A stretch of 64,000 bases of DNA, taken from positions 62,001 through 126,000 of the forward strand of contig JAJZMF010000027.1 of assembly GCA_021850325.1 (NCBI GenBank), written 5' to 3'. The position numbers and the translations under genes are program-made. Every line of letters begins with the position of its first letter. Position 1 is the stretch's first letter. Positions 59,885-64,000 of this stretch are shown in pieces. Origin of the DNA: Actinomycetes bacterium (lineage in GTDB: Bacteria > Actinomycetota > Acidimicrobiia > Acidimicrobiales > Palsa-688). The notes beneath the pieces were generated by a model. That model made no database searches. It had not been told where the DNA came from and was given only the letters and a program-made list of their open reading frames with translations.

Positions 59885-60700
59885 GTGGGCCTCTCGGACG
59901 AGCAGTACCGGCAGCTGCTCGCGTTGCGCACCGACCTCCGTCGCTTCCTCCGCTGGAGCGACAAGCAGGCCCGTGCGGCGGGCCTCAACCCGGCTCAGCA
60001 CCAGCTGCTGCTGGCTGTGCGGGGCCACGGAGGGCCGGGGGCACCGACCATCGGGGACGTGGCCGAGCACCTCCTGCTCGAGCACCACAGCGCAGTGGGG
60101 CTCGTGGACAGGGCCGAGGCCGCCGGCCTGGTCGAGCGGGTGCGCCCCGGCTCAGGTGGCGACCGTCGTGTCGTCCGCCTACGGCTCACCCCCGATGGCG
60201 AAGGCCTTCTGGAGCGCCTGTCGGCGTCGCACCTGGACGAACTGGCACGGCTGGGCCTGGGCCTGCCCCGCCCGGTACCGGGTGCGGCTCAGCTCGACGC
60301 TCCGGCACCGCCGGAGCCCTTGCCCGGGGCGGGCCGGGCCCACCTGGTCGCGACCGCCCGCGTCTACGGGCCCCACCAACCGACGGCAGCGCATGGGGTG
60401 CTGGTCGACCGGCTCTGGCCAAGGGGCCTCGCCCGCTCGTCGGCGCCGTTCGACGAGTGGATGAGCGACGTCGCACCGAGCACGGAACTGCGCCGCTGGT
60501 ACGACCACCGGCCAGAGCGCTTCGAGCGCTTTGCCGCCGTCTACAGGCAGGAGCTGGGCCGGGAGCCGGCCTCGGGGGCGCTGTCGCGCCTGCACCGGAC
60601 GGCCGCTGAACGCGACGTCGTCCTCTTCACCGCCACCCGTGACCTCGCCCTGTCGGCGGCCGAGGTGCTCCGCCAGGTCCTGGCCGGAGGCCGCGGGTGA
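59885..60700 (+). CDS. MarR-family regulator fused to a DUF488 domain
   Basis: A 271-residue two-domain protein. Residues 1-130 are a MarR winged helix: LNPAQHQLLLAVRGHGGPGA, IGDVAEHLLLEHHSAVGLVD, then the wing GGDRRVVRLRLTPDGEGLLE. Residues 155-270 are DUF488 (YeaO-like): RVYGPHQPTAAHGVLVDRLW, PRGLARSSAPFDEWMSDVAP and LFTATRDLALSAAEVL. DUF488 proteins are usually separate and of unknown function. GTG 59885 is chosen. The stop overlaps the response-regulator GTG, so the fusion and the two-component system form one operon. Confidence 0.9.
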   Translation: MGLSDEQYRQLLALRTDLRRFLRWSDKQARAAGLNPAQHQLLLAVRGHGGPGAPTIGDVAEHLLLEHHSAVGLVDRAEAAGLVERVRPGSGGDRRVVRLRLTPDGEGLLERLSASHLDELARLGLGLPRPVPGAAQLDAPAPPEPLPGAGRAHLVATARVYGPHQPTAAHGVLVDRLWPRGLARSSAPFDEWMSDVAPSTELRRWYDHRPERFERFAAVYRQELGREPASGALSRLHRTAAERDVVLFTATRDLALSAAEVLRQVLAGGRG

Positions 60701-61386
60701 GGGTCCTGCTCATCGAGGACGAGCACCATCTGCGGGAGGCCCTGCGCCGTGGGCTCTCCGAGGCGGGGGACGAGGTCGTGGGCGCAGCGACCGGTCCCGA
60801 AGGGCTGCGGCTGGCCCGTGAGCAGGTGTTCGACGTCATCGTGTGCGACATCCTCCTGCCCGGCCTCAACGGCTTCCAGGTGTGCCGGCGGCTGCGGGAA
60901 CAGGCGGTCTGGACGCCGGTGCTCGTGCTCACGGCCAAGGACGGCGAGTGGGACCAGGCCGAGGCTCTCGACGCCGGAGCCGACGACTACCTCACCAAGC
61001 CCTTTTCGTACGTGGTCCTGAGGGCCCACCTGCGGGCGCTGGCCCGCCGGGGGGCCCGGTCGGACAACCAGGGGGCGGACCTCATGCGCTGGGGCGATAT
61101 CGTCCTGGACAAACGGGCCCACCGCTGCAGCCGTGCCGGGCGCACCGTCGAGCTCTCCAACCGTGAGTTCGAGCTGCTGGCGGAGCTGCTGGCGAGCGGG
61201 GGCAGGGCGGTGACCAAATCGGAGCTGCTGGAGAGGGTATGGGGCCCGGGGTTCAACGGCGACCCCAACATCGTCGAGGTCTACGTGGGCTACCTGAGGC
61301 GCAAGCTGGACGCCCCCTTCGGCCGCCGGTCGTTGGAGACGGTCCGCGGCGTGGGTTACCGCCTCGCCCCGGACGAAGTTGACTGA
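60697..61386 (+). CDS. OmpR-family response regulator
   Basis: A 229-residue regulator. Receiver: acidic pair ED at 7-8, phospho-acceptor Asp51 (VIVCDILLPGLNG) and Lys near 101 (DYLTKPFSY). C-terminal winged helix: VELSNREFELLAELLASGG, ITVRE-type end ETVRGVGYRLAPDE. The start GTG overlaps the MarR-DUF488 stop (GTGA), and the kinase TTG overlaps its stop. Its likely target is the repeat cluster at 62898-62991. Confidence 0.95.
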   Translation: MRVLLIEDEHHLREALRRGLSEAGDEVVGAATGPEGLRLAREQVFDVIVCDILLPGLNGFQVCRRLREQAVWTPVLVLTAKDGEWDQAEALDAGADDYLTKPFSYVVLRAHLRALARRGARSDNQGADLMRWGDIVLDKRAHRCSRAGRTVELSNREFELLAELLASGGRAVTKSELLERVWGPGFNGDPNIVEVYVGYLRRKLDAPFGRRSLETVRGVGYRLAPDEVD

Positions 61387-62848
61387 GCCTCAGCCGCCCC
61401 GGGCCGGCTTCTGGCGACGCCTGGGCACGGTGCGGGCCAGGGCGGCCATCGTGTCCGTGCTCGCCGTGGGAGGCGCACTGGGGGCCACGTCGGTGAGCGT
61501 CGTCCTGCTGCTGCGAGGCGCCCTCTATCAGAACGCCGGCAACACGGCCCGCTCCGAGGCCCAGATCGTGGCCTCCGTGGTGAGCACGCGTGGCACCCGT
61601 GGCCTGCTGCACCATCCTGTTCCCAACGCCATCGAGGAGATGGCCGTGCAGCTGGTCGGCCCGGACGGCACGGTACTGACCTCCAGCAGGAACATCCGGG
61701 GTGAGCCGGCCATGCTGCCGACCATGCCCGTGGGGCAGCGGACCGTGGTCTCGGGGCCGGTCGTGCTCCGTGTCCGCCGCTTCACCCACATCAACCTGAA
61801 CCTGGACAGCCGGTTCGTGGTCGCAGCCACGGGGGTGCTCAGCCCCAACTTCGACGGCACCGTCCTGGTGGCCTACTCGCTGGGTGCGGCCGACCACGCA
61901 ACCGAACTGGTCCTGCTCGTACTGTCCATCGCCGCACCCGCCCTTGCGGTGCTGGCCGGTGGCCTGGTGTGGGTGCTGACAGGTTGGGCCCTGCGACCGG
62001 TCGAGGCGGTCCGCGCCGAGGTCGCCACCCTCTCCGCGGTCGACTTCTCCCGCCGGGTGCCCGAGCCACCGGTGGCAGACGAGGTGGGCAGGCTCGCCAG
62101 GACCATGAACGACCTGCTCGGTCGCCTCGAGTCCGCTTCGCTGCGCCAGCGTCGGCTCCTCTCCGATGTCTCCCACGAGCTGCGCAACCCGCTCGCTGCC
62201 CTCCGGGCCCAGCTCGAGGTGATGGCCGAGCACCCTTCCCAGCTCACCGGGCCTTCGCTGTCGGGGCCCCTGGCAGACGTCGAGCGGATGGGCAGGATGG
62301 TCGACGACCTGCTCACGCTGGCCCGTATCGACGAGGGGATGCTGCGCCTGCGGGTGAGCGACGTGGACATCGACGAGCTCGTGCTGTTCCACGCCGACCG
62401 GCTCCGGCTCCAGGTGCCCGTGGAGGTCTCGGTGCGGGGGGTGGGAGCGGCGCGGGTGAGGGGGGACGAGGCGCAGCTCTCGCGCGCCGTGGCCAACCTG
62501 GCCGAGAACGCAGGCCGGTACGCACGCGGGAAGGTGGAGTTCTCGGTGGAGGCGCATGAGCGGTGGTGCACGCTGACTGTGCGCGACGACGGGCCGGGCA
62601 TCCCCGAGCAGGAGCGTGAACGGGTCTTCGAACGCTTCGTGCGCCTCGACGAGGCCAGGCCGTTGGAGGGCAGCGGTGCCGGCCTGGGGCTGTCCATCGT
62701 CAAGGAGATCGTGACCGCCCACGGGGGCTCGGTCGGGGTGGAGGGCACCGGGCCGGGCACCGTTTTCGTGGTACGCCTCCCGCTCGCTGCCGACTTCGTC
62801 TACGACGCCCCGGAGGCCAACAGCGGCACTTCCTCACCCGGTGGTTGA
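61379..62848 (+). CDS. OmpR-partner sensor histidine kinase
   Basis: A 489-residue membrane kinase. Two helices (about 22-46 and 178-204) flank a 130-residue extracellular sensor. HAMP follows, then HisKA with LSDVSHELRNPLAALRAQLE (His about 265), and the ATPase domain with NLAENAGRYA, DDGPGIPEQERERVFERFVR and GAGLGLSIVKEIVTAHGG. TTG 61379 overlaps the regulator stop by eight bases and is the only start giving the normal N-terminus. It follows the regulator in an operon. Confidence 0.95.
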   Translation: MTEPQPPRAGFWRRLGTVRARAAIVSVLAVGGALGATSVSVVLLLRGALYQNAGNTARSEAQIVASVVSTRGTRGLLHHPVPNAIEEMAVQLVGPDGTVLTSSRNIRGEPAMLPTMPVGQRTVVSGPVVLRVRRFTHINLNLDSRFVVAATGVLSPNFDGTVLVAYSLGAADHATELVLLVLSIAAPALAVLAGGLVWVLTGWALRPVEAVRAEVATLSAVDFSRRVPEPPVADEVGRLARTMNDLLGRLESASLRQRRLLSDVSHELRNPLAALRAQLEVMAEHPSQLTGPSLSGPLADVERMGRMVDDLLTLARIDEGMLRLRVSDVDIDELVLFHADRLRLQVPVEVSVRGVGAARVRGDEAQLSRAVANLAENAGRYARGKVEFSVEAHERWCTLTVRDDGPGIPEQERERVFERFVRLDEARPLEGSGAGLGLSIVKEIVTAHGGSVGVEGTGPGTVFVVRLPLAADFVYDAPEANSGTSSPGG

Positions 62849-62897
62849 CCGCCTGACTTCGGCCCGCCGCCGCCGGCGCGAAAACCGGGAGCGCTGC

Positions 62898-62991
62898 TCT
62901 CAGCGTTCTCTCAGCACTTCTCAGCGTTGACGCCCAGGTAGGTGCACCGGCGTTGCCGGTGGGCCCCGAAGACGCTCAGCCGCCTTTCAGC
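62898..62991. promoter_or_regulatory. phased TCTCAGC direct repeats, candidate OmpR operator
   Basis: Three exact TCTCAGC copies start at 62898, 62909 and 62919 (spacing 11 and 10 bp), and two one-mismatch copies (GCTCAGC at 62974, TTTCAGC at 62985) are 11 bp apart. The spacing fits one helical turn, as for OmpR/PhoP-class dimers binding direct repeats. They lie between the kinase and the secreted-protein gene, 92-185 bp before its start. Confidence 0.6.
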
Positions 62992-63082
62992 TCTCGCCAG
63001 CAGGCCCTCCCGCCCAGGTACACCTGGTTGCGAACGAACGTCCCCCGGGGACCGGAACGTCCCCAGTACCGAAGGAGGAACA

Positions 63083-63355
63083 GTGAGCCTTGCTCTCTCC
63101 AAGCGCATCGTCCCCCTGGCCGCAGCTCTCAGCATCGCCGCTACCGGAGCCGTCCTCAACCCCGCTACCGCCCTTGCCCAGCACAAGGGGGTCAAGCACC
63201 ACGTGGTGACCAAGCATGTCACGCACACCGCGGCACCGAAGGCCGGTAGTGCCTGCACCAAGGCCGAGCTGCACAAGACGGCCCCCAAGACGGGCAAGGT
63301 CGTGCTCACGTGCGAGAAGGTGGGCAAGTCCTTCAAGTGGGTAGCCAAGAAGTAG
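63083..63355 (+). CDS. small secreted His/Lys-rich protein
   Basis: A 90-residue preprotein from GTG 63083 with a strong AAGGAGGAAC site. A signal peptide (about 1-32, IVPLAAALSIAATGAVLNPA, then TALA-Q) is followed by a His/Lys/Val-rich linker and a C-terminal module with two Cys and a Trp (SACTKAELHKTAP, then VVLTCEKVGKSFKWVAKK). That Cys-Cys-Trp module recurs at the ends of actinobacterial surface proteins. It is probably under control of the repeats upstream. Its function is unknown. Confidence 0.8.
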   Translation: MSLALSKRIVPLAAALSIAATGAVLNPATALAQHKGVKHHVVTKHVTHTAAPKAGSACTKAELHKTAPKTGKVVLTCEKVGKSFKWVAKK

Positions 63356-63399
63356 GCCTGGGCCCGGAGCAGTAGGCCCGGTACCAGGAGGTCATAGCG

Positions 63400-64000
63400 G
63401 TGGCCCTGTTGACCGGTGCCCGGGCGCGTCCAGCCCGGGTGGTCGGGTCGGCGCTCGTCTATGGCGCCGTGGTGGCCGCTCTGGCGCCGGGCCCTGCTCA
63501 GGCGACCGGGAGGGCGAACGCCGGCCATCTGGCGCTGCCGGTGCCCGTGAGCGCTCTCCCTGCGGTGCGGATCCAGGTCGGTGCCCGGCTCGGGCGCCCT
63601 GTCAGCCGGTACGTGTTCGGGGCCAACCTGCTCTGGGCCTACAACGCCGAGGGGGCGTTCAACCCGCGGACCGGGCGCTTCGACCCGGGCTTTGTCCGGG
63701 CCCTGCGCCGGCTGGGGGTCACCGCCCTGCGGTACCCGGGCGGCACCACCTCGGACAGCTTCTTTTGGCAGCGGGCTGTCGGCCCGAGGCGTGACCGGCC
63801 CCCGAACGAGCCCTATGGCATGCAGGCGGCCCGCCGGTCCCCGATCTGCTGTGTCCTCGACGGCCCGGCTGCCTCGAACGTGGGCCCGGACGAGTTCGGG
63901 CGGCTCCTCGGCCAACTGGGGGCTGCCGGGACTGTGACTGTCAACTTTGCCACCGGTACGGCTCAGCAAGCCGCCGACTTCGTGGCCTACATGACGGCCC
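63400..64000 (+). CDS. secreted glycosidase-like protein (GH51/arabinofuranosidase-like), truncated by window edge
   Basis: The 200 visible residues start at GTG 63400 behind AGGAGG. A signal peptide with AQA-type cleavage (VVAALAPGPAQA, about residue 36) is followed by FGANLLWAYNAEGAFNPRTG, FVRALRRLGVTALRYPGGTT and VTVNFATGTAQQAADFVAYM, which match the first strands of GH51/alpha-L-arabinofuranosidase-like (beta/alpha)8 enzymes. The Cys-Cys pair near 148 is unusual for this group. The catalytic Glu residues lie beyond the edge, so activity cannot be judged. Confidence 0.7.
   Translation, partial: MALLTGARARPARVVGSALVYGAVVAALAPGPAQATGRANAGHLALPVPVSALPAVRIQVGARLGRPVSRYVFGANLLWAYNAEGAFNPRTGRFDPGFVRALRRLGVTALRYPGGTTSDSFFWQRAVGPRRDRPPNEPYGMQAARRSPICCVLDGPAASNVGPDEFGRLLGQLGAAGTVTVNFATGTAQQAADFVAYMTA

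Follow-up and report, generated by a model that had tools for sequence, protein, structure and literature searches.

The pho box of E. coli PhoB is composed of direct repeats at an 11-bp pitch, which replace the -35 element and lie some 10 bp ahead of the -10 element. CpxRA of E. coli, a two-component system of the OmpR type, responds to envelope damage and has htpX among its targets. An envelope damage response with htpX among the targets is also governed by the OmpR-type system AmgRS of P. aeruginosa, which controls HtpX, a protease for the quality control of membrane proteins (PMC4335980). PhoP of M. tuberculosis sits on TCACAGC-N4-TCACAGC in the form of a tandem dimer, and its binding to triple and quadruple arrays is tighter (PMC4832192). 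CutRS of Streptomyces is an actinobacterial secretion-stress two-component system dealing with the quality control of secreted proteins, and the motif of CutR is TAWATAAA (PMC12802291).

Here we describe an array of TCTCAGC repeats in a 64,000-nucleotide stretch of DNA (the window) from a member of the Acidimicrobiales. The element is of an ordinary kind, a predicted OmpR/PhoB-type direct-repeat operator; it is well supported, its targets can be predicted, and it brings to light a secreted peptide family without a name as well as a candidate rule relating residue to base. Judging from genome comparison, the repeats very probably serve the adjacent OmpR/PhoB-type system as a PhoB/PhoP-type operator that would activate the peptide gene and htpX, probably as part of an envelope-stress regulon; binding, activation, the signal sensed and what the peptide does are what we infer.

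The closest solved relative of the regulator is PhoP of M. tuberculosis, with which the locus shares 7-bp direct repeats, a 4-bp spacer and four of the six base-contact residues (N212, E215, Y217 and Y220), whereas V213 and S216 are replaced by Ile and Val, respectively. The targets differ as well, and the heptamer TCTCAGC departs from TCACAGC in one base (position 3), so that it falls outside the PhoP motif; the likeness is that of the closest solved structure and not an established orthology. The pho box resembles the layout seen here at htpX but differs in half-site sequence and targets. An operator-like pair at htpX, present in four genera but degenerate in that of the window, would bring the system close to CpxRA and AmgRS; these belong to a different phylum, and the likeness would be one of function, not of descent. 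CutRS is likewise an actinobacterial two-component system, but TAWATAAA is unrelated to TCTCAGC and a CutR-type site was rejected on that ground.

The repeat array and its neighbouring genes

All parts of the locus from 60697 to 64000 lie on the forward strand. The response regulator gene (60697-61386) encodes a receiver domain and a winged-helix Trans_reg_C domain (E 1e-27 and 6e-23) with the recognition helix GDPNIVEVYVGYLRRKL, and none of the named NCBIfam regulator families (CseB, PhoB, MtrA and others) scored above its curated cut-off, the best being CseB with 182 bits vs 350. It is overlapped by the gene of a sensor histidine kinase (61379-62848) having an extracytoplasmic domain and the Pfam domains HAMP, HisKA and HATPase; orthologues of the kinase exist, and its adjacency to the regulator is kept in relatives. 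Upstream, a gene for a fusion of a MarR and a DUF488 domain (59885-60700) overlaps the regulator start by 4 bp, which makes its co-transcription with the regulator probable; the fusion gene was not found at the loci of other species examined.

The first-pass annotation, made from the sequence of the window, had described five copies of the heptamer in two clusters, spaced by 10-11 bp and preceding a secreted peptide gene immediately after the kinase gene of an OmpR system. This arrangement was borne out, three of the copies being exact and two degenerate. The repeats occupy the 234-bp gap ahead of the peptide gene. The predicted distal operator cluster (62898-62925) contains exact TCTCAGC at 62898-62904, 62909-62915 and 62919-62925 in steps of 11 and 10 bp, and the predicted proximal cluster (62974-62991), placed 76 bp past the distal one, contains GCTCAGC (62974-62980) and TTTCAGC (62985-62991) in a step of 11 bp. 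Pairs of this kind are conserved in relatives, and direct repeats at about 11-bp pitch are as found in operators of the OmpR/PhoB family.

Three TCTCAGC on the strand did not arise in any of 5000 dinucleotide shuffles of the gap. The more general pair YTCAG-N5/6-YTCAG was observed three times in the gap, a single pair arising in 0.18% of 5000 dinucleotide shuffles, and was found nowhere else in the window on either strand. TCTCAGC as such is not enriched over the whole window (8 found vs 10.2 expected); it is the local array that stands out. A fourth exact TCTCAGC at 63127, within the peptide coding sequence, is probably incidental. The suggested genome search for the repeats gave no further TCTCAGC-N3/4-TCTCAGC in the 3.18-Mb genome, making the tandem form unique to the locus, and literature text searches for the heptamer found no paper naming TCTCAGC as a regulator site.

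A sigma-70 consensus scan of the gap detected no promoter. The sequences of relatives contain TA-containing hexamers 27-30 nt past the proximal pair, and the corresponding candidate -10 here would be TACACC at 63019-63024, 28 nt past the proximal cluster. A ribosome-binding site, AAGGAGGA (63072-63079), precedes the GTG start codon at 63083.

The peptide gene (63083-63355) encodes a secreted protein of 90 aa composed of a signal-peptide-like N-terminus, a Lys/His-rich linker and a C-x18-C-x8-W module (C58, C77 and W86). The initial description as a small His/Lys-rich secreted protein with a Cys-Cys-Trp module holds for the module, which is invariant among the homologues, and fails for the His-rich character, the linker being variable; a His-rich metal-binding effector was rejected on the ground of the non-conserved linker. 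Comparison of the peptide with Pfam, NCBIfam and PDB, by sequence and by fold, gave no credible match. The AlphaFold2 model is confident only at residues 56-89, a three-stranded unit with no match in the PDB.

After a gap of 44 bp, in which no terminator-like site was found, follows a gene for a secreted GH51-like arabinofuranosidase-type glycosidase of 700 aa, identified by PDB sequence hits. It begins at 63400 and runs past the window end at 64000 (L003 1400-3502). The glycosidase, proposed at first as a possible regulon member, adjoins the peptide gene in six species and is in that respect a conserved neighbour; it may be co-transcribed with the peptide gene.

Conservation of the repeats and their probable link to the regulator

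Conservation was assessed in 32 genomes of the Acidimicrobiales family to which the window genome (G000) belongs, and the related records are MAGs bearing the label Acidimicrobiales, Acidimicrobiaceae or Actinomycetes. One or two repeat pairs precede the same peptide gene in seven species of four genera of this one family, so the absence of the repeats from relatives, which would have spoken against the original proposal, did not occur. The order regulator-kinase-repeats-peptide-glycosidase is found in G000, G001, G002, G004 and G017, as well as in G018, where a contig break interrupts it, with regulators 57-81% identical beside orthologous kinases. Peptide homologues are present in eight of the 32 genomes, and nine of the 11 peptide genes have a pair upstream, including copies unlinked to the kinase in G004 and G025; the upstream regions of two copies (G018:C237 and G010:C204) are without a pair. 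The peptide gene of G010 has an inverted orientation and still has two pairs upstream of itself, which indicates that the repeats are part of the peptide promoter. Where two clusters exist, their spacing is 76, 77, 77, 78 and 78 bp. When the gap sequences of five species are aligned, the proximal pair stands out as the principal invariant block, and the pair at 62974-62991 aligns with those in G001, G002, G004 and G018. The pattern CTCAGNRNTYTYTCAGS has 21 matches in the 32 genomes, 11 of which had served to build it, vs 0 for the reversed pattern.

The motif can be summarised as YTCAGS occurring twice at an 11-bp pitch. To relate it to the regulator, 106 distinct relatives of the regulator were collected across the order and their upstream regions searched with no motif assumed. 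The dominant hexamers repeated at a pitch of 10-11 bp were TTCAGC, TCTCAG or their complements, and no comparable hexamer enrichment was seen upstream of the 106 genes at other pitches. The YTCAG pair is present in the own promoters of 37 of the 106 regulators (shuffles 0.18; control region 0), and upstream of the orthologous regulator itself in G010 and G017, members of two genera; the regulator promoter of the window genome has no pair. At one locus (L069 3624-3661, the same locus as L210) four tandem TTCAGC with the 11-bp unit TTCAGCCGACG stand before a related regulator gene. Among the OmpR-type regulators of the window genome that were compared, only the one encoded at 60697 has the full N-I-E-V-Y-Y set of residues, others being partly similar, for example SNSLEVYIGYLRRK and SNVVDVYVGYLRRK. 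Taken as comparative evidence, this supports a conserved unit made up of the kinase-regulator pair, the operator-like repeats and the secreted peptide, in which several independent lines tie the repeats to the regulator. In other Acidimicrobiales lineages, eight orthologous kinase-regulator systems whose helix is identical (L104-L110 and L112) have neither an adjacent peptide of this kind nor a nearby pair, and the peptide would thus be a lineage-specific target.

Predicted wider targets and competing explanations

Further targets were sought by sequence patterns. A pair precedes htpX in G001 and G002 and, overall, in seven of ten genomes of the four genera carrying the system vs none of the 16 remaining genomes (Fisher p 2e-4, without correction for kinship). 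In all ten htpX promoters of the carrier genera the distance from the second half-site, exact or degenerate, to a TANNNT -10 is exactly 10 bp. The htpX promoter of the window genome (G000:C25:190996; L302) has a degenerate CTCATTGCCCTCTCAT 10 bp before the -10, where congeners have CTCAGTTTTCTCTCAG; control of htpX may possibly have been lost here. The htpX promoters of genera that do not carry the system (L310-L321) often have TTCTTN...TTTCTCAG at a similar spacing, perhaps the site of another regulator. An identical CTCAGGGGTTTCTCAG is located at -66, in reverse orientation, of a GtrA-like gene in both G000:C24:42947 and G001:C112:5255. In the window genome, CTCAGGGGTTTCTCAGG stands about 36 bp before the gene of a predicted secreted protein of 371 aa without a Pfam match (G000:C26:21772; L097), and in three other genera CTCAG pairs occur near the start of Acyltransferase_3-type membrane genes (L080, L089 and L081; the domain was checked for L080 only). 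Since in relatives the same motif marks htpX, the GtrA-like gene and the regulator's own promoter, the regulon of kinase, regulator, operator and effector proposed in the first-pass annotation stands as a conserved unit whose repeats are tied to the regulator by comparison, while the word dedicated does not apply.

It is conceivable, though improbable, that the repeats are the operator of a different OmpR-type regulator sharing the motif and that the neighbouring pair is a bystander. The genome encodes at least 13 other OmpR-type DNA-binding domains, two or three of them with near-matching recognition helices, and motif-like sites are also seen beside unrelated genes, acyltransferases among them, in genera that do not carry the kinase-regulator pair. 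Against this, the site at the htpX promoter tracks the presence of the kinase-regulator pair by genus, the motif marks promoters of the 60697 regulator's own subfamily and of its orthologue in two genera, and the complete helix set is confined to that regulator. With similarly small probability the same operator could be a repressor site through which the regulator silences the peptide gene until a signal removes it. For the peptide gene, the sites lie 28 nt ahead of the candidate -10, a position that is not diagnostic; still, this upstream location, the absence of a consensus sigma-70 promoter and the class II activator layout of the htpX site argue for activation. Chance, or a terminator or structural feature behind the kinase gene, whose stop codon lies 50-140 bp before the repeats, was rejected as extremely improbable on the shuffles and the absence of a terminator-like site, and the repeats have, moreover, moved with the inverted peptide gene and are present at unlinked peptide and htpX genes.

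A model of the regulon and the Tyr220 position

According to the preferred reading, an operator of the adjacent system, the phosphorylated 60697 regulator would most likely bind as PhoP does, in head-to-tail dimers that contact YTCAGS half-sites spaced by 11 bp. At the peptide promoter it would occupy two clusters about 77 bp apart, with three and two half-sites in the window, upstream of a weak promoter. Binding most likely activates, rather than represses, the secreted peptide gene and probably also the glycosidase gene behind it. In related genera the htpX site, 10 bp before the -10, would correspond to the pho-box promoter layout, from which it follows that envelope or secretion stress is most likely what the regulon answers to, the peptide being its most local output. 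The envelope-stress reading derives from the control of HtpX by AmgRS in Pseudomonas.

Relatives of the regulator differ at the position of PhoP Tyr220, the residue that hydrogen-bonds exactly the base differing between CTCAG and TTCAG. Regulators with Tyr at this position are associated with CTCAG in 15 cases, with TTCAG in two and with mixed sites in one, and for those with Ala, Arg, His or Ser the sites are TTCAG in 19 of 19 (locus-level Fisher p 2e-8). The window regulator, having Tyr and mainly CTCAG sites, matches what such a rule predicts. When corrected for the tree, about three to four independent changes at the position are counted and the association is not significant; as the tree needs only these few changes, the association is suggestive, not proven. 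A more ambitious proposal, which we consider rather doubtful as a whole, is that in a large Acidimicrobiales regulator family the residue at PhoP Tyr220 sets the first operator base (Tyr for CTCAG, others for TTCAG) and that the system in the window is an envelope-stress regulon with the Cys-Cys-Trp peptide as a new type of extracellular output or as a feedback ligand for the kinase. If true, operators could be read from protein sequence across the regulator family.

For an uncultured and little-studied actinobacterial lineage, the locus thus provides a predicted regulator-operator pair with named targets from DNA alone, together with a testable residue-to-base rule for the whole regulator family. 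In addition, it suggests that the principal local output of this probable envelope-stress system is a small secreted protein from a family that has no name as yet.
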